Of a stretch of DNA of 24,537 bases, positions 3,118 to 24,537 are shown piece by piece (position 1 is the first letter of the stretch; each line of letters opens with the position of its first letter). The position numbers and the translations under genes were made by a program. The DNA is taken from IMG/VR virus record IMGVR_UViG_3300032892_000323, positions 1-24,537 of that record. One strand, given 5' to 3'. This DNA is from a virus. The notes beneath the pieces were generated by a model. That model was not told where the DNA came from, ran no database searches, and saw nothing but the letters and a program-made list of their open reading frames with translations.

Positions 3118-3142
3118 GGTTTTGCCAAACTGAGAATTGAAG

Positions 3143-4765
3143 ATGTCGGCGGTACATAACCCCCTACCGATAATCCAACCTGGTCCGCATCAGGACTCGC
3201 GTGGCCTTGTACTGAGCCATGCCGCCAACGAACACGTATTCGGGGTTGTTGGGCACGTCGGCTCCGGCACTTCGGAGATCGCAAAGGCCCTGCGCGATAT
3301 CCTGAACGATCCCACACTGCCAGGCGGCGCATTCGATTGCGAGATCCTTAAGGCGCGCGACGCCATTTTGGGCTGGGCGGGCCGGAATGGAAAGGCCGTG
3401 CCAGCGGGCGGTGATCGGTCCTTAACGGCAACTGAGCAACTCCAAGATCTCGGCGACGAGATGCGCTCCCAGCAAACCAGTGCTGGTGAATTGGACTGTC
3501 CAGCGGTTGCAAGATCTCTGATCCTAACGATCCGCACAACTCGCGCAACCAAGTTGGGCGTACCCTCGAACGACGCCGTGCCCGTGGTGCCAGACGGAAG
3601 GCGTCGTGCGTACATCCTCGATTCGCTGAGACATCCGGCAGAGGTCGAGCTGCTGCGCCACGTTTACCAAGAGGCATTTGTTCTCATTGGCGTGGTCTGC
3701 GAGGAGAAGAAGAGACTTGATCGGATAGTGCACAAGTACGCGGATGCCGGTCATGAGCGGGCCAAGGCTTTCATGAAGAGGGACGCCGAGGCCAAGGAGA
3801 AGCACGGCCAGCACGTCGCCGACACGTTTCACTTGTCGGATTTTTTTGTCGATAATACGGTTGATCGTCTCCAACCAAACGGTGACGCCAATCCGGCCTG
3901 GGACATCAATGAAAGGCTCGCCAGACTGGTCAACATCTTGACGCATTCCGACGTGGTTCGACCCGACATGGCTGAGACGGCCATGCACCATGCCCACGGC
4001 GCGATGATGCAGAGCGCGTGTATGTCACGGCAGGTTGGAGCCGCTTTGGTCGACCGGGCGGGCAATATCATCTCAACGGGAACGAATGAAGTCCCCAAAG
4101 CCGGGGGCGGCGTCTACGGCGAGACCTTCGGGCGATCCGAGATCGATGATCGATGCGCCCTCAGGCGGACGGCGGACAAACGCTATTGCAGCAATACTCG
4201 CGAGCAGAATCGAATCATCGAAGATCTGATTTCCGAGATTCCTGAACTCGCCGCACTCGACGCCGACCGGAAGCGGGCTCTGGCCGTTGACCTACGGCGC
4301 ACACGGATCGGGGGCCTGCTTGAGTTCAGTAGGGCGGTGCACGCCGAGATGGATGCACTGCTTTCTGCAGCTCGTGAGGGATTCTCCCTCGTCGGGACAC
4401 GTCTCTTCGTGACGACTTTCCCGTGCCATTACTGTGCGCGACATCTTGTGACAGCGGGTGTGGATGAAGTTCAATACATCGAACCATATCCGAAGAGCCA
4501 AGCTCTCGATTTACACGAAGACGCGATTCAGGTCGAAGGGTCTGGCTGGAAGCAGCCCAGCGAAGGCGGCACGAAGGTTCTCTTCCGTCCCTTTTCTGGC
4601 GTCGCCCCAAGGATGTACAAACGGTCCTTTATGAAGGATCGTGATCTCAAGAATAAGGACACAGGGCTTCGCGAGTTTGGAGATCCGACATGGGGAAGCC
4701 CGTGGCACCTGCGCCGCGTTAGCTATGTGGAATTGGAAGCAGACTTAGCGAGGACAGCGCCATGA
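3143..4765 (+). CDS. avcD: AvcD-type anti-phage deoxycytidylate deaminase
   Basis: A 540-residue two-domain protein. The N-terminal part (about 30-270) is a P-loop kinase-like domain with GVVGHVGSGTSEIAKAL. The loop GHVGSGTS (37-44) lacks the usual Walker A lysine. The C-terminal half is a zinc-dependent CMP/dCMP deaminase domain: the His-Ala-Glu motif has His400 and Glu402 (RAVHAEMDALL), and PCHYC carries Cys428 and Cys431. SRQVGAALVDRAGNIISTGT and VQYIEPYPKSQALDLHEDA are further family features. Family members (AvcD, also called anti-phage dCTP deaminase) convert dCTP/dCMP to dUTP/dUMP during phage infection, draining the nucleotide pool. TTG at 3137 is in frame, but ATG 3143 is the likelier start. 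In Vibrio the toxin is held in check by an RNA, AvcI; only 87 bases separate this gene from the previous one. Confidence 0.9.
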   Translation: MSAVHNPLPIIQPGPHQDSRGLVLSHAANEHVFGVVGHVGSGTSEIAKALRDILNDPTLPGGAFDCEILKARDAILGWAGRNGKAVPAGGDRSLTATEQLQDLGDEMRSQQTSAGELDCPAVARSLILTIRTTRATKLGVPSNDAVPVVPDGRRRAYILDSLRHPAEVELLRHVYQEAFVLIGVVCEEKKRLDRIVHKYADAGHERAKAFMKRDAEAKEKHGQHVADTFHLSDFFVDNTVDRLQPNGDANPAWDINERLARLVNILTHSDVVRPDMAETAMHHAHGAMMQSACMSRQVGAALVDRAGNIISTGTNEVPKAGGGVYGETFGRSEIDDRCALRRTADKRYCSNTREQNRIIEDLISEIPELAALDADRKRALAVDLRRTRIGGLLEFSRAVHAEMDALLSAAREGFSLVGTRLFVTTFPCHYCARHLVTAGVDEVQYIEPYPKSQALDLHEDAIQVEGSGWKQPSEGGTKVLFRPFSGVAPRMYKRSFMKDRDLKNKDTGLREFGDPTWGSPWHLRRVSYVELEADLARTAP

Positions 4766-5333: not shown

Positions 5334-5349
5334 AGCCCCGGTCCGGGCT
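5334..5349. terminator. Possible weak hairpin between convergent genes
   Basis: AGCCC at 5334-5338 pairs with GGGCT at 5345-5349 around a six-base loop. It touches the stop codon of the minus-strand Res gene, which converges with the deaminase partner gene. The stem is short and has no clear T-run on either strand. It is listed because nothing else in this 64-base gap could end transcription from both sides. Confidence 0.2.
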
Positions 5350-8300
5350 ACTTGACCAGTTCCATCAACTTGGAATAGCTATCGACCACATCGTACTTCA
5401 CCTGGTCCGACGTAATCTTGGCGAAGAAGCGCCGGGCGCACTCGATCTTGCTTTCCTCGATCCTTCGCAAATCCATCGATGACAGGCTGCCTTTGGTTTC
5501 CGCAATGAAGTAGATGTGCTTGACGGAGCCCTGCTTGAACGCGATCGCCCAGTCCGGGTTGTAGTTGCCGACGGGCGTGGGGATCAGGAAGGCGCGAGGC
5601 AGTTTCGCATACACCTCCACCTCCGTGCCGGTGTCCAACTCGCGGACGAACTTCCGCTCCGTCTCCGCGTCCGTGAAGACGTAGTCGTATATGTGGCGGT
5701 TGGCTTTGACGGCCTTGCTGAAATTCTCCCTTGGCTTCTCCCTGGTGAAAATGTCAACATCGTGTGCGTCGTCAACGGGGTTGTACGCGAGGTGCTCGAC
5801 AATCACGGTCGCCTTCTGCTCGTTGATCAGTTGCGCGGCCTTTCGAATGAAGTCTTCGGGGTTCGCGCGGTACTGGCTGAAGACCGCCGGACTGATCCTC
5901 TGAAGGATGGCTCCAATCGTGGCGCGCGTTAGTTTCGTCTCCTCGGTCAACTTGCCAATGAGATCGTACCGAACCGCGGAATGAACCGAGGTCTTCAAGT
6001 GGGCGGTCTCGGTTGCCTGGATACGGAAAGCATCACCTTTCTTCACGGCTTCATAGCTGGCGTCATCGGTTTGCTCGCCGCGTTGGATGGTGTACTGCAA
6101 CGGCGTGACCTTCAGTTCCTTGTCCAATACCGCGATGCTCTTCGTCACCAATTCCTCGGTTTCGAAGTGAACCGTGTAGGCGGCCTTACGGTTAATCCGG
6201 CCCCAAAGCTCCTGGAACTCCTTCTTATGGAAGTTGGCATTCAGCGGGTTCGCTTTCATCATGCGCTCGTCCTCGATCGCCGGAAGCTGCGCGTCGCTGA
6301 ACACCGTGTCGATCAACTGAAAGACCTGCGGGGCGAACGGAGCCAGATCCGCCGGCAGTGGCGCGAGCGTTCCCTCGCGTTTGGCGTCGTGATACGCGGA
6401 GGCGATCCGGTCGCCGTCATCGGTGTAGTCGTTCTTGAGCAAGTACTTGTAAATGGCTTTCGCCATCGGAGCAGTGATCTTCACCTCGCCGGTATCCGTT
6501 TTGAGGACCTTGCCGGTGAAGTACGCCTCATCTGCTTTGAGCGGCCGCGCGGAGAGCGTGGCGCTGATATCGCGTTGCAGGCCAGTCACGAAGTCCTTGT
6601 AGCTTTCGCTGGCAATGACCGTCAACACGTTGACCTGATGTACCGTCGCTGGATCGTCCATGCGATCACCCTGCTGATTCACGGCCAGGCGCAATCCGCG
6701 TCCGACTTCCTGCCGGCGGGAGACCGTGCTGTCGCTGTGCTTGAGCGTACCGATAACGAAGACGTTCGGGTTGTCCCACCCTTCGCGCAGAGCCGAGTGC
6801 GAAAAGATGAAGCGGACCGGCTCCTCGAACGACAAGAGCCGTTCTTTGTCCTTCAAAATGAGGTCGTAGGCGTCAACATCGTCGGCTTCGGTCGAACGCG
6901 CGCCGGTGCTTGGATTGACCAAACGTTTGCTCTTCTTGTCGATTGAGAAATAGCCGTTATGCGTCTCGGTTGTCGGGATGCCCTTCAGGTACCGGTTGTA
7001 TGGCGAATCCTCAAGCGTGAGCACTTCGCTCAATTGGAGGTTGTACTCTTCCTCGAAGATCCGGGCATATTCGCCCGGGTTCTCGACTCCTCCGTCGTAG
7101 GAGCGGTATTTGGCGACTTCATCGATGAAGAAAAGCGTGAGGACCTTCAGCCCCTGCGCAAACAGTGCCTGCTCCTTTTCGAAGTGCGCCTTGATGGCCT
7201 CGCGGATCTGAATGCGCCGTAACGCGCCCTCCGTCACATCGCCAGTTGCCTCTCCGGCCTGGAGGATTACGCCGTTGGTGAAGTTCAGCGTGTTGTCGAT
7301 GGCGTTGATGTCCGAGACAACGAATCCTTTGTATTGGTCGAGGCCGTCCGACAAATCATACAGATTGTCTTTCTTGCCGACTCTCCGCAAAACCCGTTTG
7401 ATCCCTGCGGCGTGGCGGATTTCGATTTCGAGCCGCGCCTCAGGTGCTTTGGTCGTCGAGACTTGGATCGATTCGAGGTACAAGTAGGCGTTCGTCCCGG
7501 CCAGGCCCTTCACAGAAATCCCACGAACCGCAATCTTCTTCACGAGCTTCTGGTTGTAGGCGTCCAGCGCGTCCAGGCGATAGACCTTATTGTGCTCCTG
7601 CTTGTGCGTCGCGGAATACCGCAGGATCATCAGCGGATTGAACTCCTTCAGAGACTCGATCGTCTTGGCGCCCTCCATCCTCTGAGGCTCGTCCAGAATC
7701 AGGATCGGCCGATTTCGCGAGATCACGTCGATCGGGCGGCGGGACTGGAAGTCATCCAGCTCCTCGTAAATCCTGCGGGCATCCTGGCCGCGCGCATTGA
7801 ACGCCTGGACGTTGATCACCATGACGTTGATTCCGGCGTCTGACGAGAAGCTTTCCAGGTTGTGAAGCTGCTTCGAGTTGTAAATGAAAAAGCGAGCACG
7901 CCTGCCGTATTGCTCCAGGAAGTGCTCAGCCGTGATTTCGAGCGATTTGAACACGCCCTCCCGAATGGCGATGCTGGGGACGACGACGATGAACTTGCTC
8001 CAACCATAACGCTGGTTAAGCTCGAACATCGTCTTGATGTAGCAGTACGTTTTGCCGGTGCCGGTCTCCATCTCAACATCGAGGTTGATGTCGCAGACCG
8101 GTGTTCGTTTGAGCGCCTCCGAGAGCGTAAGGTTCCGGCTTTGCTGGACCGTCTGAATATTCTTCAGCACTTGGCTCAATGGGATCGCCAGATCGGTGTT
8201 CTTGAAACCCGTGAACTCAAGGTTCGCGAGGAATGGAGAGTTGGGATCGATTTCGCGACCGGGATCGATCCGATAGACCACGCCGCCATTCAAAGACTGG

Positions 8301-8371
8301 CCCTGGAAGCTATCGACGACAGCGGCAACGGCATCATCTTGGAAGCCCTGCTGTTTGAACTTCAGCTTCAT
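5348..8371 (-). CDS. res: Type III restriction endonuclease subunit Res
   Basis: A 1007-residue DEAD/DEAH-box superfamily 2 helicase with a C-terminal nuclease. Walker A is [11 protein letters not shown] (P-loop 102-108), the Walker B form is [12 protein letters not shown] (DEPQ 227-230), motif III is RYSATH (SAT 253-255), and the later [20 protein letters not shown] and [13 protein letters not shown] correspond to motifs V and VI. Near the end, NPDWAIAF (Asp940) and FIAETKGS (Glu958, Lys960) form the PD-(D/E)xK nuclease site typical of type III Res proteins. With Mod it cleaves DNA at unmethylated asymmetric sites after ATP hydrolysis. Full length for the family and all key residues are intact, so it looks active. 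The start lies two bases after the Mod stop. It is the last gene of the minus-strand operon. Confidence 0.95.
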
Positions 8372-8373
8372 GG

Positions 8374-10224
8374 CTAGATCGACCGGAGCTCTGTGGATGG
8401 CGACAGGAGCTTGAAAATCTGCTCCACATTGATCTTTACGCTGTCGCTTCCATAGCTACTGTCGCGGAAGACGGCACGGAGCGGTTTCCGCTTGGCGATT
8501 TCTTTTACGAAGTCGTCACTGATGCCGGAGTCAAAGCAAGCGGCCAGGGCATTTCCGTCGACAAAGAAGACGGTCTTTTCGTGGATGGTCTCCTGTGCGA
8601 TCGGCAGAGCGAGGTCAACACCCCAGTCCACCAGCACCTGAAACAACAGGTCCTCCGGCGTACGGTCACTCTTGATGTTGTCTACTTGTGCAAGCAGATC
8701 ACGCTGCTTAGACTCGTCTGGCGAGTAGTAAACGTCCTTCATATTGGAACTGTCAATCTTTAGGACTCGGTAGCCGACATCTAGACCTGGTGCCGTTAGG
8801 GCGGTCTCCGTCCGCAGCTTGCTGCCAGCGCGACGTATCCTCTCTTTGGTGAGTTCCGCGATTGTGGAGTACTCGCTTTCAGGTGTTGGCTCAGGGAGCT
8901 GAATGATTATGAAACGGCGGGTGCCTTTGTCTTCGGCATTCAGTCGCATAACAGCGTGCGCAGTTGTGCCGGAACCTGCGAAGAAGTCCAAAACGATACC
9001 GCTAGAATCAGGTGTGGCTTGGGACACCAATTCGTGCAGCAACGACAGCGGCTTGGCGAACGGAAAGACCTTGTCACCAAATAGTTCCTGTATGGTCCGT
9101 GTCCCTTCCGTGGTGTACCCAACCTCCGATAGCCAAGAGGAAACCCCAGTGAATCGGTTCTTGGCGTCACGCAGGAACTTTTTCAGGCGAGGGCGGCCGT
9201 CTGGCTTCTTAGGCCAGAGGATTCGTTCCTCGGCGATAAGCTGTGCCATGCTGTCCGGCGCGTAGCCCCACCCTCTCGATGGCGAAGGCGGGTATGAGGC
9301 GCCCGTCTTCGGGTCGATGAGATCATAGTGCAGGTTCGGGCGCTCCTTCCGATTCGCGACACCTGTTAGATTGTCGCTGAACCACGGGCCGCGGGGATCG
9401 TTGTCGGGGTTGGAATACTTTTCTTCATCAATAGGAACCCCCTTAAGCGCGGCTCCCGGCTTTCGATAACACACGACATATTCGTGATCGAGCGACGCCC
9501 GATCGTCATTTCGGCTGTCAGCGACTTGGCGGCGCTGCCAGACAAACGTCGTCATGAAAGATGTCGCTCCGAAGACCTCGTCGCACAATCGACGGAGATT
9601 GGCAATCTCGTTATCATCTATCGAGACGAGAACCAGCCCATCCTCCGCCAGTAGGTTCCATGCGAGCTTGAGGCGGGGGTACAACATGCTGAGCCAGTCA
9701 GAATGGAATCTGCCGTTGCTGTCGGTGTTGAGCTGCAATCGGTTGCCACGCTCGTCGACTTGAATCGAGCGACGGAGGTACTCGTCCGAATCCGCAGCGA
9801 AGTCGTCGTCGTACAGAAAATCGTTGCCCGTGTTGTACGGCGGATCGATGTATATAACCTTCACTTGGTTCAAGTATGTTTCTTGAAGCAGTTTCAACGC
9901 ATCTAGGTTGTCGCCCTCGATGAACAGATTCCGTGTGGTGTCGAAATCAATGCTCTCGCCGCGACAAGGCCGTAGGGTCTTCGCGACTGGAGCATTGGCA
10001 GCCAGCATCGCGTCGCGCTTCCCCGGCCAGTCGAGGTGATACCGTTCCCGCAGGCCGTCCACGACATGATCAGAAAGTTCTTGGCGCAGTTGATCAAAGT
10101 CCACCGAGAGAACTACCTTGCCGTGGTCATCGCGCGCTTCGGTAACGCAGTTCGGAAACAGAGCGGCGAGCTGCTGGATATTCCCTGAAACACGGTCGGG
10201 CGTGTGGAGCTTGAGCTTTTCCAT
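8374..10224 (-). CDS. mod: Type III DNA methyltransferase subunit Mod (adenine-specific)
   Basis: A beta-class N6-adenine DNA methyltransferase of about 616 residues. The catalytic motif [11 protein letters not shown] (DPPY 127-130) comes before the S-adenosylmethionine-binding motif [12 protein letters not shown] (413-420), the order expected for Mod proteins. [20 protein letters not shown] is the typical lead-in to motif IV. The target recognition region lies between, about 230-390, and sets the unknown recognition sequence. Mod methylates one strand of the site to protect it and gives specificity to Res. The frame opens at ATG 10233, but that codon directly abuts the AGGA ribosome-binding site. 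The ATG at 10224, which begins [10 protein letters not shown] as in relatives, is better spaced; 10227 is also possible. It is 30 bases downstream of the DUF4391 gene. Confidence 0.95.
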
Positions 10225-10254
10225 CATTAGCATTCCTGGATTGCGATTTCCTCA

Positions 10255-10926
10255 CTATTGTTGCTGAAGTCGCGCCACATCCGAGCGGCAAGCTCGAAGT
10301 GCCGAGTTCAGCTCGACCTTCCGATTGAATTGGATCTCCTTCTGGATGCGTGCCTCGAGCTTCCGGCATTCATGCTCCTTGGCGCGGATCAGGCTCGCGC
10401 GGTCGGCCATGGATTGCAGCGATTCTCCCGGCCTCGGACTCAGAGCCATAGGGCAGGCGAGCATGTGACGGTGAAGCATTTGCTCATAGAGTCCAGCGAG
10501 GTCCAGGGCAACCGGCAGCGGCGGGCGCGGTACGTTCGTGGACTGCCATGGAGTTTCAAAGTACGCTTCCACCACATTCTTTCGGCGGCTGGCTTCGCTC
10601 GGGCGTTTGTAGGCAGCGGCAAACCTTACCCTGCCATCGAAGACCAGTTCAAAGAACAGGAACGACGGAATCGCTTTGTCGAGTGTCCGCAGGACATCCT
10701 CCGCAACGTCGGCGGACTTCAGCGTGACCTCGAACACCTGGATTTCCTGCACGGGCGATTTCGATGGGAGGTTGACCGTTTCGGGCGCGAGCTTGTACTT
10801 CCAGACGATTTCACTCACCTGGGACACAAAACGATTTCGAATGGCCCGGCTCGGTTTGGCGTGGCCGTAAACTTTGGTCTTCGGGACGGGCCGATTCACT
10901 TCAGCCTGCTTGGGGTAGTCAAACAT
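10255..10926 (-). CDS. DUF4391 protein linked to the type III-like operon
   Basis: A 223-residue protein that matches DUF4391. It starts MFDYPKQAEVNRPVPKTKVY, then has FVSQVSEIVWKYKLAPETVN, EIQVFEVTLKSADVAEDVL, a hydrophobic strand IPSFLFFELVFDGRVRFAAA and YKRPSEASRRKNVVEAYF. The C-terminal 50 residues are a charged coiled-coil (ECRKLEARIQKEIQFNRKVE). The frame stays open to 10977, but ATG 10926 is the family-like start and overlaps the helicase stop by eight bases. The biochemical role is unknown. Such proteins recur between an SNF2-type helicase and Mod/Res genes, so a structural or coupling role in the complex is plausible but inferred. Confidence 0.85.
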   Translation of the reverse strand: MFDYPKQAEVNRPVPKTKVYGHAKPSRAIRNRFVSQVSEIVWKYKLAPETVNLPSKSPVQEIQVFEVTLKSADVAEDVLRTLDKAIPSFLFFELVFDGRVRFAAAYKRPSEASRRKNVVEAYFETPWQSTNVPRPPLPVALDLAGLYEQMLHRHMLACPMALSPRPGESLQSMADRASLIRAKEHECRKLEARIQKEIQFNRKVELNSALRACRSDVARLQQQ

Positions 10927-13900
10927 GCCGTTCAAGCGCCTCGTCTGCTTGGGGTTGTCCCCTCGTGCTCTGACCAACCACGTCGGCTTGTAGTGGCTCT
11001 TGGACCACCAGAAAGGCGATCAACTCGAAATCGTCGAGGCCGGCAACAGGATTCACCAGCGCCGTGGTCCGTGGTCCAGTGAAGAGCGTATCGAGGTCCT
11101 TCTGGTCTTTGAAGTCCGCAATCGAACGAATGGCGCGCGAGAGGAGGTCTGAATACGGCTGCATGTCGCGGCCATCCTGGGTCTTCAGATTGAATGGTTG
11201 GTACGCCTCGGGCATTGGATCGCCGCAGCCTTTGCAGGCGGATCGAACCATGTCCAGCAAACGCTTAACCTCGTTGTGGGTGACCACAACGTCGCCGTCG
11301 TCTCCGACATACACCAGGTAATACGGGTGAAGGCGATTGAGTTGATTCAAATTGATGCCCGGGTGCCGGTTCCGCAACGCGAAAATCGCACCAGGCACGA
11401 GGCCGCGTTCGCGATCCGGCGGAACGACCGCGTGCATGCCGGTCGGCACGCCGTCGAGGTCACCGTTTGCCTTAACGTAGTTGAGCAGATCCATGCGGAA
11501 ATCGTTGAGGCCCAGATCGGTGATTGAGACGCCGGTTTTCAGATCCTCCAGTTCGATTACTTCTTCCTGGAGGCGCCGGAGTTGCTCCTTTCGGTAGGAG
11601 ATGTCGTTGGCACGGCCGTCGAGCGGATTGTCGTCGCCGGTCGCCGTTACGTCGGCGATCACCATGCGGCTCTCCACGCGCTCTTTCAGATTGATGTATT
11701 CGTCCAGGCTGATATCCGGCCAGTAGTTGACGAGCTGGATGCATGCGTTCCGGGAGCCGATGCGGTCGATTCGTCCAAAGCGCTGGATGATTCTTACTGG
11801 GTTCCAGTGGATGTCGTAGTTGATCAGGTAGTCGCAGTCCTGAAGGTTCTGGCCTTCGGAAATACAATCCGTGGCGATGAGGAGGTCGATCTCATTTCTC
11901 TCCTCAGGAAACAGTGTGGCCTTCTCTTTGGACAGCGGGGAAAAGAGCGTCAGGATGGATTGGAAGTCGTACCCCCGCCCAATGGTCGACTTGGGCGTCT
12001 CGGTGCCGGTCACGCGTGCGGTGTGGATTCGCTGTTGCTTTAGAAGCGGGGCGGCCAGTTGATCGTACAGATAGTTGGCCGTGTCCGCGAAGGCCGTGAA
12101 GACGATTTGTTTGCGATTACCGGCGTTGATCGGGGACCGGAGCTTGGCGAGGATTTGACCTTTCAGATGCTGTAGCTTCGCGTCGTCGGCCGGCGTTATC
12201 TTGCGCATTTCGGTCAGGAGAGCCTGGATGATCGTAAGGTCCGCGCGCAGGTCATGATCCCACGCCGGGAGGTCCATGTCGGCAAGGTTGATCCGAACCT
12301 TTCCGCCGATTTCCTCGCTCGGGCCCTCGTCGAGAAGATCCGAGAACCCTTCTTCGTCATCCGGCTCCGCGTTCTCAAAAGCCGGTGAGTAATCCGTGAA
12401 ATCGGCGTCGCGCCCGGTGTTCCTGAAATCCTCGATCTTGACAAGCGTCGCCAGGTGGAGAGCTTCAAGCCGCTGGAGCGTCAGGCGGAACGCCTGGACC
12501 GAACTCTCCAACCGCTTGAGGAGGTTCACCGTCATGAGTGTTTGAAGGCTTCGTTCCCGGTCCTCTTGCTTGAGCGTTCCGCCACCGCCGCGGACGTCCG
12601 TGTCGTACAGCGCCTCGTACTTGGCCCGTCTGCTTGGAAGAATGTAGCCGATTGGTGCGTATACGCCAAGCTTCATCAAAGAGAGCTGGTTAAAGATTTC
12701 GTTGAAACCGATCACGTCGGTCCGATTGGTGAGCGGGCAATGGAACGAGAGGGGTTTCAGCCGCTCTGGGAACGGGCCGATGTCCTGCGTGTTGTAGAAC
12801 GTCTGGATGTGCCGGCGGGATCGCGCGATGGTAACCGAATCCAGGAGTTCAAAAAAGTCGAAATCGAGGGCTTCCAGGATCGCCGCCGGAGTCCGGGCCT
12901 CTGGAGGCAGTTTTGACCACGCGTTAAACGCCGTCTGAGCACGCCGGAAGATCTCCTCGATATTCTTCTCCGTTCGCAACTGACCCTTGAGGTGCTCGGG
13001 ATCGCCTTCATGGGCCAACGCAAGTTGGTTCTTCAGATCGTTGAACCGGTTATTGACGGGGGTCGCAGAGAGCATCAGGACCTTTGTCTTGACACCCTCC
13101 TTGATCACTCGATTCATCAGCCGCTGATAACGCGTCTCGCGATCCTTGAATGCATCGTTGTTGCGGAAGTTGTGCGACTCGTCAATGACGACGAGATCAT
13201 AGTTGCCCCAGTTGACCCGGTTCAAGGGCATGCCCAGGGAATACCCGCTGGTCCGAAGGAGGTCCGTGTGGCAAAGGACGTCGTAGCTGAAGCGATCCTT
13301 GGCGAACGGATTCGTCTTCAGGTTCCCCTTGTAGTTGCTCCAGTTATCCGACAACTTCTTCGGGCACAGCACCAGCACGGACCGGTTCCGCAGCTCGTAG
13401 TACTTCATCACCGCCAGCGCCGTGAAGGTCTTGCCGAGGCCGACGCTATCCGCAAGAATGCAGCCGTTATACGTCTCCAGCTTGTTGATGATCCCGGTCG
13501 CCGCGTCGCGCTGAAAGTTGAACAGCTTTTGCCAGACGAGGCTGTCCTGATAGCCGGTCAAGTCGTTTGGTAAGACGTCTTCGGTGATGTCCTCCAGGAA
13601 CTCGTTGAAGATGTTGTAGAGCATCAGGAAGTAGATCCGCTGCGGCGAGTTTTCCTGATACACCGAGGCGATGTGCTCACAGATGACGGCCGTGACATCC
13701 CTGAGCTTCTCCGGATCGTTCCAGATTTGGTCGAACAGGCTGATGTAGGTTGCGGTCACCGATGGCTCATCCATCCTGTTGACCATGTTCGAGACAGCAT
13801 TGCCTTGTTGGTAGCCAAGATCGACGGCGGTGAAGCCGTGCAGGGGCATGTAGACGGCGTCTGATCCATTCCCCTCCAGGCACGCGAACTGCTGCATGGG

Positions 13901-14275
13901 TGCTTTGCCGTGATTGGAACGGAAGGCTGTCTTGCGCCGCATCCATTCGGCGCACTCCCTGGCGATCGCCCGCTGCGTGAGTTTGTTCTTCAGCCGAAGC
14001 TCAAATTCGCTGCCATAAAAGCCACGCTCACGCTCCAGCTTCGGGATGTGGAACTCCCGATGTTCCTTTCGGACTTTGTCCGTCACCTCACCGGGAACGA
14101 AGGTAGGCGACGTGAAGATGAATTGCAGGCAATCGATGGCTTCGAACTCGGCCTTGAGGGCCTCATAGGCGTAGATCGAAAAGCAAGAAGCCGCGATTCG
14201 AAGTTTCGCGCCTGAGCCGATGGAGCGCTTGAGATCGTCGCCCAGCAAACGGTTGATGTTGTCGATAATCTCCAT
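10919..14275 (-). CDS. SNF2-family helicase with N-terminal PLD-like domain
   Basis: An 1118-residue protein. Residues 1-170 resemble a phospholipase D-like nuclease domain, with LRIAASCFSIYAYEALKAEF and a single His-Gly-Lys at 122-124 as the possible half-site. The SNF2/superfamily 2 motor follows, with ILADSVGLGKTFTALAV (Walker A 276-283), LVVIDESHNFRN (DESH 365-368) and MLSATPVNNR (403-409). A helicase C domain has IVFTAFADTANYL, ATDCISEGQNLQ (801-812) and QRFGRIDRIGS (831-841). Such proteins move along double-stranded DNA and can remodel or clear bound proteins. ATG 14275 (MEIIDNINRLLG) is preferred over the earlier in-frame start at 14317. Its 3' end overlaps the DUF4391 gene. With DUF4391, Mod and Res it forms a four-gene unit that resembles the helicase-methylase-ATPase type of predicted defence system. 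Confidence 0.9.
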   Translation of the reverse strand: MEIIDNINRLLGDDLKRSIGSGAKLRIAASCFSIYAYEALKAEFEAIDCLQFIFTSPTFVPGEVTDKVRKEHREFHIPKLERERGFYGSEFELRLKNKLTQRAIARECAEWMRRKTAFRSNHGKAPMQQFACLEGNGSDAVYMPLHGFTAVDLGYQQGNAVSNMVNRMDEPSVTATYISLFDQIWNDPEKLRDVTAVICEHIASVYQENSPQRIYFLMLYNIFNEFLEDITEDVLPNDLTGYQDSLVWQKLFNFQRDAATGIINKLETYNGCILADSVGLGKTFTALAVMKYYELRNRSVLVLCPKKLSDNWSNYKGNLKTNPFAKDRFSYDVLCHTDLLRTSGYSLGMPLNRVNWGNYDLVVIDESHNFRNNDAFKDRETRYQRLMNRVIKEGVKTKVLMLSATPVNNRFNDLKNQLALAHEGDPEHLKGQLRTEKNIEEIFRRAQTAFNAWSKLPPEARTPAAILEALDFDFFELLDSVTIARSRRHIQTFYNTQDIGPFPERLKPLSFHCPLTNRTDVIGFNEIFNQLSLMKLGVYAPIGYILPSRRAKYEALYDTDVRGGGGTLKQEDRERSLQTLMTVNLLKRLESSVQAFRLTLQRLEALHLATLVKIEDFRNTGRDADFTDYSPAFENAEPDDEEGFSDLLDEGPSEEIGGKVRINLADMDLPAWDHDLRADLTIIQALLTEMRKITPADDAKLQHLKGQILAKLRSPINAGNRKQIVFTAFADTANYLYDQLAAPLLKQQRIHTARVTGTETPKSTIGRGYDFQSILTLFSPLSKEKATLFPEERNEIDLLIATDCISEGQNLQDCDYLINYDIHWNPVRIIQRFGRIDRIGSRNACIQLVNYWPDISLDEYINLKERVESRMVIADVTATGDDNPLDGRANDISYRKEQLRRLQEEVIELEDLKTGVSITDLGLNDFRMDLLNYVKANGDLDGVPTGMHAVVPPDRERGLVPGAIFALRNRHPGINLNQLNRLHPYYLVYVGDDGDVVVTHNEVKRLLDMVRSACKGCGDPMPEAYQPFNLKTQDGRDMQPYSDLLSRAIRSIADFKDQKDLDTLFTGPRTTALVNPVAGLDDFELIAFLVVQEPLQADVVGQSTRGQPQADEALERHV

Positions 14276-14460
14276 GCGTTGTCGATTCGGGCAATGCTGC
14301 GCAACGGATCTGCACAAAGCGCTAGCAAGATTGACCAGTCTTTAGAGATACCAAATGGCACATTCGCCGGGGGAATCGCTGCCGGGAACGCCGAACCCGG
14401 TCACGAAAACTGCTGGGTACTGAAGTCCGACGCTGTGGAGTTCGAGTGACGCTGCGGCCC

Positions 14461-17803: not shown

Positions 17804-18154
17804 ATGAAGCAGATAGCCAGCACGCGAGACTTACAGCCTCATGAACGCGCGTTTGTGGACTCAATGCGGCGGCTTCAGTTCGGCCGCGTCGAGTCTCTGC
17901 GTATAACGCGAGGCGCGCTGGTGCTCGATCCATGGCCCACGATGGTGCAGAGCGTCAAGTTTGCCACGGGGGAATCGACCGACCAGCAACCCGTGGCCGA
18001 CGAATTCGAACTGAAGCGGCAAGTCATCGAGCTATTCGAGTACGTGCGTGCCGTCGAAGCCGGGGAGATCCACTGTCTCGAGGTGCGGCATGGACTTCCA
18101 TTTTGCATGGAGATTCAGCATCGGCCCGCCGAGGATGGAGGCAACCGTGGTTGA
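17804..18154 (+). CDS. Small hypothetical protein heading the replication operon
   Basis: A 116-residue protein beginning MKQIASTRDLQPHERAFVDS at ATG 17804, just behind the strong ribosome-binding site GAGGAGGT (17793-17800). A TTG at 17801 is in frame but abuts that site and is less likely. It has RLQFGRVESLRITRGALVLD (about 27-46), an acidic middle part and a C-terminal helix-strand with ELKRQVIELFEYVRAVEAGE and IHCLEVRHGLPFCMEI. No known domain is recognised. The 3' end overlaps the sigma-like gene by eight bases, so it is the first gene of an overlapping operon. It could bind nucleic acid or the sigma factor, but no evidence fixes this. Confidence 0.72.
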   Translation: MKQIASTRDLQPHERAFVDSMRRLQFGRVESLRITRGALVLDPWPTMVQSVKFATGESTDQQPVADEFELKRQVIELFEYVRAVEAGEIHCLEVRHGLPFCMEIQHRPAEDGGNRG

Positions 18155-18707
18155 CGGCATCTTCGAGCAGTCCTCTTCCGCCACCCACCGGCTCGCCGCC
18201 GTGCGTGCAGCCGCCACGACAGTTTCATATCAGTTGCCCTCGGACGTCCGCCAGGATCTGGAACAAGAAGCTTTGCTTGAACTCTGGCGAAAGCGCCCCG
18301 CGTATGATCCGCGGCGTGGGAGTTGGCGCACATTCTGCGAACGGGTGGTTGCCAACAAGATGACTTCCATCGTGCGTCGAATGCGCTCGGAACGATCCGG
18401 CCAATTCCGGGAAGATCCGCTCGACAAAGTGGTCGGCATAGCAGCGCCAGACCGCAGCTTGGATTTGCGTTCGGATGTTTCGCGTGTATTGACCGGCGTA
18501 TCGAGATTCGACCGGCGCGTAGCCCTCTGCTTGATCTGCTTCACTGCCATCGAAACCAGCCACAACCTTGGAGTCTCCCGCGCGACCGTCTACCGGGCAA
18601 TCGAGCGGTTACGGACCGCGTTTGTAGACGCGGGACTCGCAAATGACCGTCAACGGGCTAGCGCTCTCCTCCCCGGCCACGCCGACCAGATCGAGGCGAA
18701 AGCATGA
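18147..18707 (+). CDS. Sigma-70-family RNA polymerase sigma factor
   Basis: About 186 residues. Region 2 is clear: SDVRQDLEQEALLELWRKRP, then AYDPRRGSWRTFCERVVANK (core-binding and -10 recognition). A linker follows, then a region 4-like helix-turn-helix, DRRVALCLICFTAIETSHNL followed by GVSRATVYRAIERLRTAFVD. The region 1 and 3 parts are absent, as in small ECF-type factors. The start is GTG 18147, five bases after GGAGG; ATG 18135 is an alternative. The gene overlaps the primase gene as ATGA at 18704. The factor likely directs RNA polymerase to the element's own promoters, perhaps timing late or replication genes. The odd placement in front of a primase suggests it belongs to the element and not the host. 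Alternatively it may be a sigma-like DNA-binding protein. Confidence 0.82.
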   Translation: MVDGIFEQSSSATHRLAAVRAAATTVSYQLPSDVRQDLEQEALLELWRKRPAYDPRRGSWRTFCERVVANKMTSIVRRMRSERSGQFREDPLDKVVGIAAPDRSLDLRSDVSRVLTGVSRFDRRVALCLICFTAIETSHNLGVSRATVYRAIERLRTAFVDAGLANDRQRASALLPGHADQIEAKA

Positions 18708-19492
18708 CTCCGACTATGCCGGCAACGATCACCAGTTTCGTTGTGCCGGACGGTCTCATCGAGCACGACCAGTGGGTGCTGTGGCGCTACGAAGCTCGCC
18801 AGGGAAAACGCACCAAGGTCCCGTATCAGATAACCGGAAAGCCTGCCGACAGCACCGACCCTACGACATGGACCACGTTTGAGGAGGCATCGGGCGCCTG
18901 GAGCCAAAATCGTCAGCGCTACGCCGGTCTCGGTTTTGTCTTCTCCAACGAAGATGGTCTCGCCGGTATCGACCTGGATGACTCGCTCGATGAGCAAGGC
19001 GACGTCAAGGTTTGGGCGCGCGGAATCGTCGAGCGGTTCAGCGACACCTACATCGAGATCTCCCCTAGCGGTCAGGGTCTCAAAATCTGGGCGCGCGGGT
19101 CGTTGCCCGCCAACCTGCCGGGGGTGAAGGTAGGAGACGGCGCTGTTGAATTGTACGACCACGCGCGGTACTTCACGGTCACCGGGCGCGCCTATCGCGG
19201 TGCACCGCTTGCGGTCGAGAACCATGCGGATGACCTGCTCATGTTGTACGACCGGCTTACCGCAGGTCGAAAGGCGTGGCCCCTCCAACCACTCCCCGGC
19301 GGGCAGATTCCGCATGGCCGCCAGCACAACACGCTCGTAAGCATCTGCGGAACTCTTCGTACAAGAGGTGTCTGCGAGGAGGCGATCGAGGCTTGTCTCC
19401 AGATCGTCAATCAGAAGCAGTGTGAGAAGCCGGGGCCGCCCGATCATATTTCGCGGATTGTCCGCAGCTCGCGCCGGTGGGGGACGAAATGA
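18704..19492 (+). CDS. Primase-polymerase-like replication protein
   Basis: A 262-residue protein starting at ATG 18704, overlapping the sigma gene by four bases. The N-terminal domain resembles the archaeo-eukaryotic primase superfamily, in the style of phage NrS-1 polymerase. The lead-in is HDQWVLWRYEARQGKRTKVP, the acidic active-site motif is LAGIDLDDSLDEQGD (Asp90, Asp92), and the nucleotide-binding part is IEISPSGQGLKIWARG (118-131). The pattern VELYDHARYFTVTGRAYRG follows (about 148-166). The C-terminal helical part (HNTLVSICGTLRTRGVCEEA, PDHISRIVRSS) looks like a primase C-terminal helical domain. It should make primers or replicate DNA for the element. A full-length helicase is not fused to it, so the following YfjI protein or a host helicase may be needed. 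Confidence 0.88.
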   Translation: MTPTMPATITSFVVPDGLIEHDQWVLWRYEARQGKRTKVPYQITGKPADSTDPTTWTTFEEASGAWSQNRQRYAGLGFVFSNEDGLAGIDLDDSLDEQGDVKVWARGIVERFSDTYIEISPSGQGLKIWARGSLPANLPGVKVGDGAVELYDHARYFTVTGRAYRGAPLAVENHADDLLMLYDRLTAGRKAWPLQPLPGGQIPHGRQHNTLVSICGTLRTRGVCEEAIEACLQIVNQKQCEKPGPPDHISRIVRSSRRWGTK

Positions 19493-21039
19493 AACCGAAT
19501 ACGCCCCCGGATTGGCTGCCCGCCGTTGATCCACTCGAAGGAGAGTGGCCAGATCCCCAGCCGCTCGAGTGCGAGTTGCCGCCCGTCGAACCAATCACGG
19601 AAAACCTGCTTCCGAGTTCTTTTCGTCCCTTGGTTAGCGACGTGGCTGAGAGAATGCAGACGCCTGCGGATTACCCAGCAGTCGCAGTCATACTCGGTCT
19701 TGCGGGGGTGGTCAATCGGCGGGCCGTCATCCAACCGAAGGCCAACGACACCAGTTGGATCGTCGTGCCGAATTTGTGGGGCGGGATAATCGCGCCTCCC
19801 GGATTCATGAAGTCTCCGGTGATCACGGCCACGACCCGCCCGCTTGTCCAAATTCAGACTGACTGGCGACGGGAGTCCGAGGAAGCGGCAAAGGAGTTTG
19901 CCCAGGCGAAAGAGGAGTATGACCTTCGGCGATCGGCGTGGAAGGATCAGTTCAAGTCCAGCGCGAAGAGCGGCAAGCCAGCGCCCGAGCGACCGAACGA
20001 TCCCCCGGAAGAGCCGACGTCGCGACGTCTGATCGTGAATGACGCCACGTTCGAAGCGCTGCATCAGACCATGAGCGAGAACCCTGCGGGTATCTTCGTG
20101 ATTCGCGACGAGCTGACTGGATGGTGGAGCACGTTGGATCGGGCCGGGCGCGAAGGGGAGCGGGCGTTCTGCCTTCAGGCGTGGAACGGCGATACCGGCC
20201 ACACCATCGACCGGATCGGCCGCGGAACGATCCATGTGGAAGCGTGCTGCATGTCCATGTTGGGCGGCATCCAGCCAGGCCGGCTCCGCTCCTATTTGGT
20301 TGATGCACTCGAAGACGGGCCGAGCAACGACGGGCTGATCCAACGCTTCCAATTGCTCGTGTGGCCCGATACGCCCGCCGCTTGGCAGTACGTGGACCGG
20401 AAGCCGGATGCGGCGTGTGAGGAGATTGCATCGCAAGTATTCCGCAGGTTGGCGCAGCTCGATTGCAACAACCCCTTGCGGTTTCGGTTCGGCACCGAGG
20501 CGCAACAGCTTTTTGTCGAGTGGCTGGCAGACCTCGAATCGAAGCTGCGGGGCGGCGAACTCCATGCCGCTCTGGTCTCGCACCTGTCGAAGTACCGTAA
20601 ACTCATGCCCGCGCTGGCGCTCCTGTTTGAACTGGCGGATCGCGCCGCAGGGGGTTTTGAAGGTTTTGTAGGTGCCAACCAGGGCGAACCGCCAAACTTT
20701 TGGGTGTCCCTTGAGCACACCCGCCAAGCTGCGGCCTGGTGCGATTACCTGGAATCTCACGCGCGGCGCGTCTACTCCTGCGTAACAACGTCTCGGATGC
20801 GGGCGGCGCGAGAGTTGGCCGACAAGATCAAACGGCGGAAGGTCGGGGCCAATGGATCATTCACGTGCCGCGACGTCTATTTAAAAGGATGGAGTGGCCT
20901 GGCCGATCCCGAGGCAGTCAAGCTGTCGCTGGATGTGCTGCTAGACGCCGGCTGGGTCCGAGAACTGGGCGGCGAACCCGGACCGACCGGCGGGCGTCCG
21001 TCGGCCCGCTATGCAATCAATCCAAAGGTCTGGCGATGA
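19489..21039 (+). CDS. YfjI/DUF3987 replication-associated protein
   Basis: A 516-residue DUF3987 (YfjI-like) protein. ATG 19489 overlaps the primase stop as ATGA. The early part (40-120) has LLPSSFRPLVSDVAERMQTP and a P-loop-like NLWGGIIAPPGFMKSPVI (KS at 108-109). The first glycine of the classical Walker A is replaced by alanine. A charged helical insert follows (about 125-175), then RRLIVNDATFEALHQTMSEN, IFVIRDELTGWWSTLDRAG and CCMSMLGGIQPGRLRSYL. This order fits a AAA-like core. DUF3987 proteins usually follow primases in mobile elements and are thought to be helicases for replication. The C-terminal third includes a GGFEGFVGANQGEPP stretch encoded by tandem GGTTTTGWA units, and ends in a winged-helix-like part (FTCRDVYLKGWSGLADPEAV). 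Confidence 0.88.
   Translation: MKPNTPPDWLPAVDPLEGEWPDPQPLECELPPVEPITENLLPSSFRPLVSDVAERMQTPADYPAVAVILGLAGVVNRRAVIQPKANDTSWIVVPNLWGGIIAPPGFMKSPVITATTRPLVQIQTDWRRESEEAAKEFAQAKEEYDLRRSAWKDQFKSSAKSGKPAPERPNDPPEEPTSRRLIVNDATFEALHQTMSENPAGIFVIRDELTGWWSTLDRAGREGERAFCLQAWNGDTGHTIDRIGRGTIHVEACCMSMLGGIQPGRLRSYLVDALEDGPSNDGLIQRFQLLVWPDTPAAWQYVDRKPDAACEEIASQVFRRLAQLDCNNPLRFRFGTEAQQLFVEWLADLESKLRGGELHAALVSHLSKYRKLMPALALLFELADRAAGGFEGFVGANQGEPPNFWVSLEHTRQAAAWCDYLESHARRVYSCVTTSRMRAARELADKIKRRKVGANGSFTCRDVYLKGWSGLADPEAVKLSLDVLLDAGWVRELGGEPGPTGGRPSARYAINPKVWR
20653..20672. repeat. Tandem GGTTTTGWA units within the YfjI gene
   Basis: GGTTTTGAA is followed directly by GGTTTTGTA and GG, giving two 9-base units in phase with the Gly-Phe-Glu-Gly-Phe-Val-Gly codons. 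The same word recurs in both orientations in the next gene at 21105-21145. The stretch is AT-richer than its neighbours. Confidence 0.6.
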
Positions 21040-22099: not shown

Positions 22100-23749
22100 G
22101 TGGTCACCCCCGGCGCGCCCCGTGGGCGGCCGCCCGCCAGCCTGGTAGGACAAGCCAAGACGCCGCGACCGGGCGCAACGTGGGCCAACTGTGCGCGAAC
22201 GGGCGGCCAACGACGGCCAGGGCAAAGTAGTTCATCCGTGACTCCAGTGCTCCAAGAACCGGTTCCCATTACGCCCGCGCTGGCCCGGCGCATCGAGATC
22301 TGGCCCGTGGACCGCCTCGTGCCGTACGCCCGAAACGCCCGAACCCATTCGGACGCCCAGGTCGCCCAGATCGCGGCGTCGATAGTGGAGTTCGGCTTCA
22401 ATGCGCCGATCTTGGTGGACAGCGACGCGGGAATCGTCGCCGGTCATGGGCGTTTGCTCGCCGCGCGTAAGTTGCGCCTTGTCGAAGTTCCCGTCGTCGT
22501 GTTGGACCACCTCAGCGAAACGCAAAGACGGGCGTACATCATCGCCGACAACAAGCTTTCCGAGAACGCGGGTTGGGACGAGGAGATATTGGCGGCGGAA
22601 CTCGCTGACCTCGAGCACGAGGGCCTCGACCTCCGGTTGGTGGGCTTTTCGGATGCGGAGTTGGAGGCGCTGCTGGCAAACGAAAACGAGAGCGCCGAGC
22701 CGAATGAGGAAGAGCCGCTCACCGAGCCGCCTAGTCAGCCAATCACTCAGCCCGGCGACGTGTGGCTGATCGGAAATCACCGGCTCATCTGCGGCGACTG
22801 CCGTGAAGTCGCCGTGATCGAGAAGTTGCTGGATGGGAAGCGCGCCAACATCGTGATCACTTCCCCGCCGTACGCCACGCAGCGCGAGTACGACCCAGCG
22901 AGCGGCTTCAAGCCGGTGCCTCCTGACGAGTACTGCGATTGGTTCCGTGAAGTCGCGGCGAATATCCAGACGATTCTGACGCCCGATGGATCGTACTTCC
23001 TCAACATCAAGGAACACGCCGAAGACGGCGAGCGCAGCCTGTACGTTAAGGATCTGGTCCTGGCGCACAAGCGGCAGTGGGGCTGGCGCTTCGTCGATGA
23101 GTTCTGCTGGCGCAAGACCGATAACGGAGTGCCGGGCGGCTGGGGTAATCGCTTCAAGAACGCCTGGGAGCCGGTCTTTCACTTTGCGCGGCAGCCCGAG
23201 ATCAAGTTCCGGCCCGATGCCGTCAGCCACAAGTCGGAAGACTGCTTCGATTACTCACCGAATAACCCGAGGTCGACTTCCGGCAGCGGGTTGCTGGGGA
23301 CTGGACCGCGCGGCGCGGCAGCCGACGGCGGGAAGAATCAGGACGCCTGGAAGCGGAGCCGCAGCAGCCTGTCTGATACCAATGGCCGGTACGCGGGCCT
23401 AGCGCGTCCGAGCAACGTCATCGAAGCACGCACGGAGTCGAGCCAAGGATCACACTCGGCCCCGTTCCCTCGCGGGCTGGTTGAGTTTTTCGTCAAAGCG
23501 TTTACCGACGTCGAGGACTCCGTGTTCGATCCATTCCTCGGAAGCGGAACCACCATGGCGGCAGCTCATGTACTGGGACGCGCCGGGTACGGCTGCGAAA
23601 TCTCACCAGCGTATTGCGACGTGATTCTACAGAGGATGAAGGCGCTGATGGATCAAGAGCCGATCTTGGAGGCGACTAGAAAACCGTTCAGCGAGGTCGC
23701 AGGCAGGCGCGCACAGCTTCAGGACCTCCCGAGGCGGAAGGCATCATGA
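22100..23749 (+). CDS. ParB-domain/DNA methyltransferase fusion, copy 1
   Basis: A 549-residue protein. Residues 60-195 form a ParB/Srx-like N-terminal domain: IEIWPVDRLVPYARNARTHS, QIAASIVEFGFNAPILVDSD, IVAGHGRLLAARKL (GHGR 115-118). After an acidic linker, a beta-class DNA methyltransferase follows, with IGNHRLICGDCREVAVIEKL, catalytic TSPPY (254-258) and SAM motif DPFLGSGTT (477-485). TSPPY is compatible with N4-cytosine or N6-adenine methylation. Such fusions are common in phages and plasmids and probably modify the element's DNA against host restriction. The start GTG 22100 has an AGAGGTGG just upstream and gives a basic tail with APRGRPP, like an AT-hook. GTG 22238 would give a shorter form. 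It overlaps copy 2 as ATGA. Confidence 0.88.
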   Translation: MVTPGAPRGRPPASLVGQAKTPRPGATWANCARTGGQRRPGQSSSSVTPVLQEPVPITPALARRIEIWPVDRLVPYARNARTHSDAQVAQIAASIVEFGFNAPILVDSDAGIVAGHGRLLAARKLRLVEVPVVVLDHLSETQRRAYIIADNKLSENAGWDEEILAAELADLEHEGLDLRLVGFSDAELEALLANENESAEPNEEEPLTEPPSQPITQPGDVWLIGNHRLICGDCREVAVIEKLLDGKRANIVITSPPYATQREYDPASGFKPVPPDEYCDWFREVAANIQTILTPDGSYFLNIKEHAEDGERSLYVKDLVLAHKRQWGWRFVDEFCWRKTDNGVPGGWGNRFKNAWEPVFHFARQPEIKFRPDAVSHKSEDCFDYSPNNPRSTSGSGLLGTGPRGAAADGGKNQDAWKRSRSSLSDTNGRYAGLARPSNVIEARTESSQGSHSAPFPRGLVEFFVKAFTDVEDSVFDPFLGSGTTMAAAHVLGRAGYGCEISPAYCDVILQRMKALMDQEPILEATRKPFSEVAGRRAQLQDLPRRKAS

Positions 23750-24537
23750 CTGGTCTCGCCAACTTGGTTGTCCAGATCTGGACAATCGACCGGTTGCTTC
23801 CGTACGCCCGCAACGCCCGTACGCACTCTGAAGAGCAGGTCGCACAGGTCGCCGCCAGCATCGTAGAGTTCGGTTGGACGAATCCGATCCTGGTCGGTGC
23901 GGACGGAGTAATCATCGCCGGCCACGCGCGCCTGGCGGCCGCGAGGAAGCTGAAGATGACCGAGGTTCCGGTTATCGTCCTTGACCATCTGACTCCCACA
24001 CAGCGCCGGGCGCTGGTGCTCGCGGACAACCGGTTGGCGCTGAACGCCGGGTGGGATGAGGAAATGCTGCGCGTGGAGTTGGAGTCGCTCGAGGAGGACG
24101 GCTTCGACCTCGACTTGGTCGGTTTCACGGACGAGGAGGTTGAGGAACTCCTGCGCGATCCAGAGGAGTCCAATGTTGGACTGACCGAAGACGATGCGAT
24201 TCCCGAAGAAGAGGAGCACGCAGTTACCCTGCGTGGAGACATTTGGTTGATGGGCGAGCACCGACTGCTATGCGGCGATGCCACCAGCACGGATGCGATC
24301 CAAGCCATTCTCTCTGGTGGCTTGGCTGACATGGTGTTTACGGACCCGCCGTACAACGTCGATTACGAGGGCAAGACCGCGAAGAAGCTCAAGATCGGCA
24401 ACGACACGCTCGGCGGCAAGTTCTATGAGTTCCTGCGCGATGCGTGCGCGAACGTGCTGACGGTAACGAAGGGCGCCATCTACATCTGCATGTCGTCGTC
24501 GGAGTTGCACACGCTCCACCAGGCATTCACCGATGCC
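23746..24537 (+). CDS. ParB-domain/DNA methyltransferase fusion, copy 2 (cut by window end)
   Basis: The first 264 residues of a second fusion protein; the frame is open at the window end, so the gene is partial. The ParB-like domain is similar to that of copy 1: IWTIDRLLPYARNARTHSEE, VAASIVEFGWTNPILVGADG, IIAGHARLAAARKL. Here the loop is GHAR, where copy 1 has GHGR. An acidic linker with DEEVEELLRDPEESNVGL follows. The methyltransferase part begins GEHRLLCGDATSTDAIQAIL, with catalytic TDPPY (199-203), the usual form of N6-adenine methyltransferases. ATG 23746 overlaps copy 1. The pair probably arose by duplication and then diverged in methylation chemistry. The SAM motif expected near the end lies outside the window. 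Confidence 0.9.
   Translation, partial: MTGLANLVVQIWTIDRLLPYARNARTHSEEQVAQVAASIVEFGWTNPILVGADGVIIAGHARLAAARKLKMTEVPVIVLDHLTPTQRRALVLADNRLALNAGWDEEMLRVELESLEEDGFDLDLVGFTDEEVEELLRDPEESNVGLTEDDAIPEEEEHAVTLRGDIWLMGEHRLLCGDATSTDAIQAILSGGLADMVFTDPPYNVDYEGKTAKKLKIGNDTLGGKFYEFLRDACANVLTVTKGAIYICMSSSELHTLHQAFTDA

Follow-up and report, generated by a model that had tools for sequence, protein, structure and literature searches.

The two fusion genes

The window analysed here is a viral contig of 24,537 nucleotides (IMG/VR record IMGVR_UViG_3300032892_000323). At its 3′ end lie two overlapping plus-strand genes, each joining an N-terminal ParB-like nucleotide-binding domain to a beta-class DNA methyltransferase. 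Gene 1 (22238-23749) is of the TSPPY, N4-methylcytosine (m4C)-like type, and gene 2, present as its 5′ part (23746-24537), is of the TDPPY, N6-methyladenine (m6A)-like type. The frame of gene 1 is open from a GTG at 22100 and was originally listed from there (22100-23749, 549 codons). Since homology to ParB begins about 55-60 codons inside this frame, and the ATG of a relative at locus L002 aligns with the window GTG at 22238 (by eye; codon and frame were checked), the latter is probably the start of gene 1. The ParB-like domain of gene 1 spans 22292-22678 (model residues 10-138), with the P motif GHGR at 22442-22453. The methyltransferase domain spans 22754-23650, with motif IV, TSPPY, at 22859-22873, the S-adenosylmethionine (SAM) motif DPFLGSGT at 23528-23551, and a presumed target-recognition region, bounded by eye, at 23114-23449. 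The start of gene 2 and the stop of gene 1 share an ATGA (23746-23749). Gene 2 has its ParB-like domain at 23770-24159 (an assignment that includes the model of gene 2's relative), GHAR at 23920-23931 and TDPPY at 24340-24354. A first-pass annotation of the contig had reported both the ATGA overlap and the differing catalytic motifs; the two frames, the overlap and the motifs were all verified in the sequence.

Gene 2 is truncated by the end of the contig, and therefore its second half, which the first-pass annotation had lacked, was read from relatives with up to 93% identity over the portion present in the window. The window copy itself still ends at the contig end, and a full-length relative, L002:5898-7151, was used as its stand-in. 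Both genes match PHROG 498, a family labelled DNA methyltransferase that spans the ParB and methyltransferase halves (E 1.9e-106 for gene 1 and 6.7e-94 for gene 2), and by this sequence evidence they are phage ParB-methyltransferase fusions of that family. Pfam N6_N4_Mtase matches gene 1 (3.6e-36). The motif order of beta-class amino-methyltransferases, with motif IV, (S/D)PPY, ahead of motif I, F.G.G, is whole in gene 1 and is present for the gene 2 type in full-length relatives.

The ParB halves of the two genes are 57% identical in a 19-row alignment and 62% by local blast, which bears out their homology as first proposed. Scores with Pfam ParB_N (20.7 and 24.2, gathering cut-off 26.3) and TIGR00180 (24.1 and 25.4 bits, cut-off 58.45) fell below threshold for both genes. 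Several PHROG ParB families match both, and a profile built from 19 ParB halves retrieves Noc/ParB structures from the PDB (best E 1.8e-7); the ParB identity of these halves is settled by these matches. The P motif in both genes, GHGR or GHAR, fits GxxR, and G60 and R63 are invariant in all 19 rows, as is a D-N pair (residues 95-96) near the position of Box III, where the alignment to Noc ends and where the P motif of canonical ParB reads E-N. The window proteins share with canonical ParB/Noc CTPases the homologous N-domain and GxxR, and have an asparagine near the approximate place of Box III, whereas GHGR or GHAR replaces GERR, and neither the helix-turn-helix nor the C-terminal dimerisation domain of canonical ParB (ParABS) was seen; in AlphaFold models a linker is followed by the methyltransferase. 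As to the suggestion that a ParB-like domain could load the enzymes on DNA, the nucleotide-binding N-domain alone is present, and the models leave no room for the other two domains. In a 2025 survey of the ParB-CTPase fold (PMC12704722), the arginine of GxxR was required for nucleoside triphosphate (NTP) binding, and 11 of 28 purified ParB-fold proteins bound NTP. Since these included a bacterial ParB-SAM-methyltransferase fusion, which bound ATP, a nucleotide switch by the ParB domain is possible by analogy.

The loop difference between the two genes, GHGR against GHAR, had been taken as potentially meaningful. Among 224 full-length genes (103 S-type, like gene 1, and 121 D-type, like gene 2), GHGR is found in 86 S-type and 26 D-type genes and GHAR in 11 and 91, respectively; DPPY fusions of named phages have GHGR in 11 of 14 cases, with gp25 of Acidithiobacillus phage AcaML1 included. 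On this table and the named DPPY fusions, a reading of the two loops as functionally different is rejected. As each loop occurs in both types and both fit GxxR, the contrast is, as judged from sequence, one of lineage with no tie to the base modified. The loop of Wolbachia phage WO reads GHLR, and Phlop and a Christensenellales protein lack GxxRxxA.

The catalytic halves of the window genes align only locally (36%, 58 bits, with gene 2 truncated). By the general motif rule, TSPPY denotes m4C and DPPY m6A enzymes. AlphaFold models, built with 44-row alignments of window and locus proteins, had mean predicted local distance difference test (pLDDT) scores of 79.0 for gene 1 and 77.9 for L002:5898-7151; both consist of the N-domain, a weakly predicted short linker and the methyltransferase, with no space for another domain between. 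In Foldseek searches of the PDB the first match was M.PvuII (cytosine-N4, E 3.2e-15) for gene 1, and CcrM (adenine-N6), followed by M1.HpyAVI, for gene 2's relative, with a cytosine-N4 enzyme at rank 9. Because the methyltransferase fold is common to both enzyme types, these ranks are hints. M.PvuII and CcrM are not known to have a ParB domain. By sequence, the best PDB matches of the gene 1 methyltransferase half were 2zie (an unassigned TSPPY enzyme), M.PvuII and a cytosine-N4 enzyme, and those of gene 2's relative were 8urk (M.BceJIV), 2zie, 9c3u, CcrM and 5hek (M1.HpyAVI). The nearest structures, in match lists that overlap, point to m4C for gene 1 and, for the complete relative of gene 2, to m6A, which fits the motif rule.

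Conservation, genomic position and known relatives of the mixed pair

Viral contigs were scanned with each gene, yielding 159 loci on 151 contigs, of which eight second loci sharing a contig (spotted by eye) were set aside; such scans favour close relatives by design. Genes were assigned to the S or D type by the higher scorer of two methyltransferase blast queries, a distinction fixed beforehand. All 96 viral contigs with two ParB-methyltransferase frames, the window included, were mixed, 92 in the order S-D and four D-S. In the gene 1 scan, 36 of 42 complete S-type genes (one per locus, the first, each with 2.5 kb or more of sequence downstream) were followed by a D-type gene, and in four of the remaining six (L053, L055, L069 and L079) the D-type gene lay upstream instead. 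Conversely, in the gene 2 scan an S-type gene lay upstream in all 48 cases with room for one.

With the gene 1 alignment as query, GTDB genome contigs yielded 75 loci, several of which may share one genome. A D partner was present in 42 of the 45 bacterial loci with room. Acidobacteriota taxa were named in 72 of the 75 locus titles (counted by eye), 42 of these being Bryobacterales, Bryobacteraceae, Solibacter(aceae) or Sulfopaludibacter; the other three titles were Steroidobacteraceae (L235), 'bacterium' (L254) and Rhizobiales (L259, a short match). From the hosts of these relatives we infer that the host of the window phage belongs to the Acidobacteriota. Three S-type copies (L202, L218 and L226) lie on a single 200-kb contig, and six others (L198, L200, L203, L204, L206 and L237) are all in one metagenome-assembled genome. 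Unless the bins are mixed, such multiple copies within one assembly suggest that these Acidobacteriota may harbour several prophages of this kind together. Among 50,697 phage records, gene 2's relative was matched over at least 80% of its length in 280 and gene 1 in five, AcaML1 among them; ParB-DPPY fusions are thus far commoner than S-type fusions in phages at large.

Searched with one terminase large subunit as query, 18 of 22 bacterial loci with 7.9 kb of downstream sequence showed a relative of it downstream of gene 1. The terminase gene follows the pair in L147 and L089, lies between the two genes in L025, and comes seven genes after the pair in AcaML1. The relatives have the arrangement of the ParB-Tls locus, in which ParB and modification genes stand beside, and usually upstream of, terminase. 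Across 133 pairs, a count that excludes pairs more than 1.8 kb apart, the second ParB homology began within 25 bases of the end of the first gene in 47 and 0.66-1.63 kb later in 63, often with another gene between. A recurrent gene family on the plus strand fills this gap in 59 loci; its L002 member (L002:5043-5564, 173 codons) matched no PHROG or Pfam family. The gap gene is absent from the window, where genes 1 and 2 overlap.

Both genes are under purifying selection, with their catalytic motifs kept. Over the whole stretch compared with each of four relatives, the ratio of nonsynonymous to synonymous substitution rates (dN/dS) was 0.10-0.16 for gene 1 and 0.07-0.15 for gene 2, values that are rough because dS was at least 1 in six of the eight comparisons. 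The presumed target-recognition regions, whose limits were set by eye, are conserved about as well as the catalytic core (75% versus 73-78% over 42 rows of class S1, to which gene 1 belongs, and 79% versus 75-81% over 38 rows of class D1, that of gene 2), a pattern that speaks for fixed target sites and not for an arms race over specificity.

Fusions of this general kind, and their place beside terminase genes, are already known. In PMC12704722, fusions of the ParB fold with N6N4 methyltransferases were among those found more often in phages, with an enrichment in prophage regions. A 2019 study (PMC6536676) found 36 ParB-methyltransferase fusions in Paracoccus prophages, every one upstream of terminase genes, and cited Iyer et al. 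2013 for the 'ParB-Tls locus', where ParB-like proteins were proposed to direct modification during packaging. The window genes share with PHROG 498 phage ParB-N6/N4 fusions the N-terminal ParB fold and C-terminal PF01555, the enrichment in prophages and the position upstream of terminase seen in Paracoccus; however, the 13 fusions from named phages besides AcaML1 are all DPPY, ten of them with GHGR, whereas a pair of two types is conserved here. The tandem gp24-gp25 of AcaML1, annotated only as 'DNA modification methylase', twice, in the deposited genome, is the same tandem, with a 4-base overlap, TSPPY followed by TDPPY, and terminase genes further downstream; it differs in having GHGR in both ParB loops and a TSPPY half of another class (S2, median 38% identity to S1). 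Wolbachia phage WO met1 and met2 (PMC3089641), which sit in different prophages, also combine ParB with a methyltransferase, and the one examined is CDPPY and upstream of terminase, yet no S-type partner was found within the 6.2 kb examined around that gene. No published description of a mixed m4C/m6A-type pairing was found in a literature search that most subscription papers were beyond the reach of.

Origin of the catalytic halves

The first-pass annotation suggested that the pair arose by duplication, followed by a change in target or in the base modified. To compare the halves, gene pairs whose ParB halves share 52-68% identity were used, the S1-S1, D1-D1 and S1-D1 pairs being sampled at random to one quarter; the classes S1, S2, D1 and D2 were drawn after the catalytic tree had been seen, so that the S1-S2 and D1-D2 contrasts are descriptive. 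At this level of ParB identity, median methyltransferase identity was 72% within S1, 62% within D1 and 61% within S2, but 32% for S1-D1, 38% for S1-S2 and 39% for D1-D2. In the maximum-likelihood catalytic tree, which has several long branches and from which D_L024 was lost since no motif matched, S1 falls in one group (99/95) with free-standing TSPPY enzymes from a Cellulophaga phage and two jumbo phages; together these join the AcaML1-like S2 (97/91). An unfused S-type enzyme directly follows a D-type gene, in reversed order, in L036 (where motif IV of the D gene is TDLPY), L038, L039 (where the S frame is longer, its upstream part not ParB-like by blast) and L041 (where the D gene is cut). 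A D-like ParB half is found, with modest support, on the S-type genes L023, L026, L035, L098 and L101. A larger ParB tree, of 116 of 125 rows (nine were dropped because their domain boundary was not matched), needs five changes between S and D and has few well supported forks.

Because of the low S1-D1 catalytic identity relative to that within classes, the grouping of S1 with free-standing TSPPY enzymes, the unfused S-type enzymes beside D-type genes and the D-like ParB halves on some S-type genes, the locus looks like a single type of ParB domain to which interchangeable catalytic halves have been joined. Several results tell against such exchange. The DPPY fusions of named phages, at the same ParB identity, have median catalytic identities of 43% to D1 and 40% among themselves; catalytic halves that diverge fast or are exchanged are therefore, as judged from these sequences, seen outside the pair as well. 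The ParB tree with outgroups, from which S_L068 was left out and in which the Phlop and Christensenellales branches reach length 10 and are probably not comparable, has an unresolved backbone, and so speaks neither for nor against independent acquisition of the two ParB halves, the outcome named beforehand as fatal to duplication. Approximately unbiased (AU) tests, with six long rows left out, did not reject simpler histories, with p 0.40 for the S fusions as one clade, 0.27 for all fusions as one clade and 0.22 for S1 plus D. Whole-gene duplication nevertheless fits these comparisons poorly, even though the AU tests do not reject it. What stands of the original proposal is that the ParB halves are homologous and that the best catalytic matches act on different bases; the S1-D1 identity and the free-standing relatives weaken the duplication that it invoked.

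Concerted evolution of the two ParB halves was considered but is not the rule: their median identity was 60% whether the two came from one contig or from different ones (38 pairs). The highest ParB identities within a contig were 80% in L079, 70% in L101, and 69% in AcaML1 and L026.

Neighbouring genes and proposed function

Elsewhere in the window, genes for a DUF2924 protein and a large serine recombinase (626-2681, plus strand) likely form an integration module. An anti-phage dCTP deaminase (3137-4765, plus strand; NCBIfam NF041025, 418.6 bits against a cut-off of 400) and a type III restriction-modification pair (5348-10233, minus strand; Res 5348-8371, Mod 8374-10233) are possibly phage defence cargo, and an SNF2-type helicase beside the latter (10919-14317) has 'HKD+Snf2' as its best PADLOC match. 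Upstream of the pair, sigma-70/extracytoplasmic function (ECF)-like, primase-like and DUF3987 helicase-like genes (18048-21039, plus strand) probably form a replication block.

The pair is best read, with a probability of roughly 60%, as a conserved phage module of two DNA-modifying enzymes within the ParB-terminase locus, which would be controlled by NTP through ParB and mark DNA around packaging. This reading builds on the mixed pairing, the nearest structures, the terminase genes of relatives and the conserved target-recognition regions, on the position of ParB-methyltransferase fusions upstream of terminase (PMC6536676) and on the prophage enrichment and NTP binding reported for the fold (PMC12704722). 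The module would be carried by phages and prophages, those found in genomes nearly all in Acidobacteriota, and each protein would consist of a ParB nucleotide-binding N-domain, a short linker and a beta-class DNA methyltransferase. If active as enzymes, gene 1 would most likely produce m4C and gene 2 m6A, with a separate fixed target sequence for each. The ParB domain probably binds NTP and governs when or where the enzyme engages DNA, and the marks would probably be set on phage DNA before or during packaging, either as a shield from restriction or as a copy of a host mark. A number of observations weigh against parts of this reading. The TSPPY/DPPY rule predicts the base well, not absolutely; the adenine enzyme M.BceJIV is second in the fold list of gene 1 at an E value (3.6e-15) close to that of M.PvuII, and the unassigned 2zie (52.0 bits) matches gene 2's relative about as well as M.BceJIV does (52.1 bits). 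A D partner was seen on neither side in two of the 42 S-type viral loci (L031 and L068) and was missing from three of the 45 bacterial loci (L192, L223 and L254). With the single query used, terminase was not found within 7.9 kb in four of 22 loci, and in the window itself it lies past the point where the contig stops. Finally, 17 of the 28 purified ParB-fold proteins in PMC12704722 showed no NTP binding.

Other explanations share part of this evidence. Plain tandem duplication with catalytic divergence, leaving independent orphan methyltransferases on which ParB is a passive leftover, would account for ParB halves that are 57% identical and homologous throughout, agrees with the AU result for all fusions as one clade, and gains from the named-phage DPPY fusions, whose catalytic halves also outpace ParB divergence. 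It is nonetheless rather unlikely, given the S1-D1 catalytic identity of 32% against 61-72% within classes, the grouping of the gene 1 catalytic half with free-standing enzymes and the unfused S-type enzymes adjoining D-type genes in four loci; the GxxR motif invariant across 19 rows would also be odd for a leftover. It is similarly doubtful, if a little more so, that the pair copies a chromosomal mark of the host, with a role in lysogeny or the timing of replication and not in protection, in the manner of the phage GANTC enzymes that mimic CcrM. Conservation of the presumed target-recognition regions over 42 S1 and 38 D1 rows and the nearly single host phylum are consistent with such a role, and GANTC mimicry is described for alphaproteobacterial phages (PMC5537653). 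The GANTC enzymes of that paper adjoin replication genes, whereas terminase is nearby here, but this contrast is weak because replication-type genes of the window stand directly upstream of the pair.

The strictness of the mixed pairing (96 of 96 viral contigs) and the close spacing of 47 of the 133 pairs could instead reflect a heterodimer, in which the ParB domains pair and the m4C and m6A sites lie on one asymmetric DNA site, one strand each, in the manner of M1 and M2 subunits; non-canonical type I enzymes do join m6A (M1) and m4C (M2) subunits in one complex (PMC9613975). This arrangement seems improbable: the ParB halves of two partners resemble each other no more closely than unpaired ones do, in 63 of the 133 pairs 0.66-1.63 kb separate the genes, often with another gene in that interval, and partnerless ParB-DPPY fusions are common elsewhere (280 phage records against five for gene 1). 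Membership of the pair in a phage-borne restriction-modification system is very improbable. The window does hold a separate type III restriction-modification gene pair, and an HNH endonuclease gene lies between the two genes in L115, but the Mod of that type III pair is another gene, 12 kb away, and scans of two window frames upstream of gene 1, and of the genes that separate the pair in L002 and L147, recognised no endonuclease. An extension of the proposed modification module, speculative and quite unlikely as it stands, is that the ParB domains form an NTP-gated hetero-clamp that joins m4C and m6A sites on phage DNA and passes the modified DNA to terminase, with the ParB part as shared frame and the catalytic halves as replaceable cassettes.

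ParB-methyltransferase fusions are frequent in phages (PMC12704722), and the literature found states no role of ParB for the methyltransferase. In this natural pair the two catalytic types sit on ParB domains that closely resemble each other, which makes the role of ParB directly testable. If the base predictions are true, some phages keep two base modifications together, in the region of their packaging genes.

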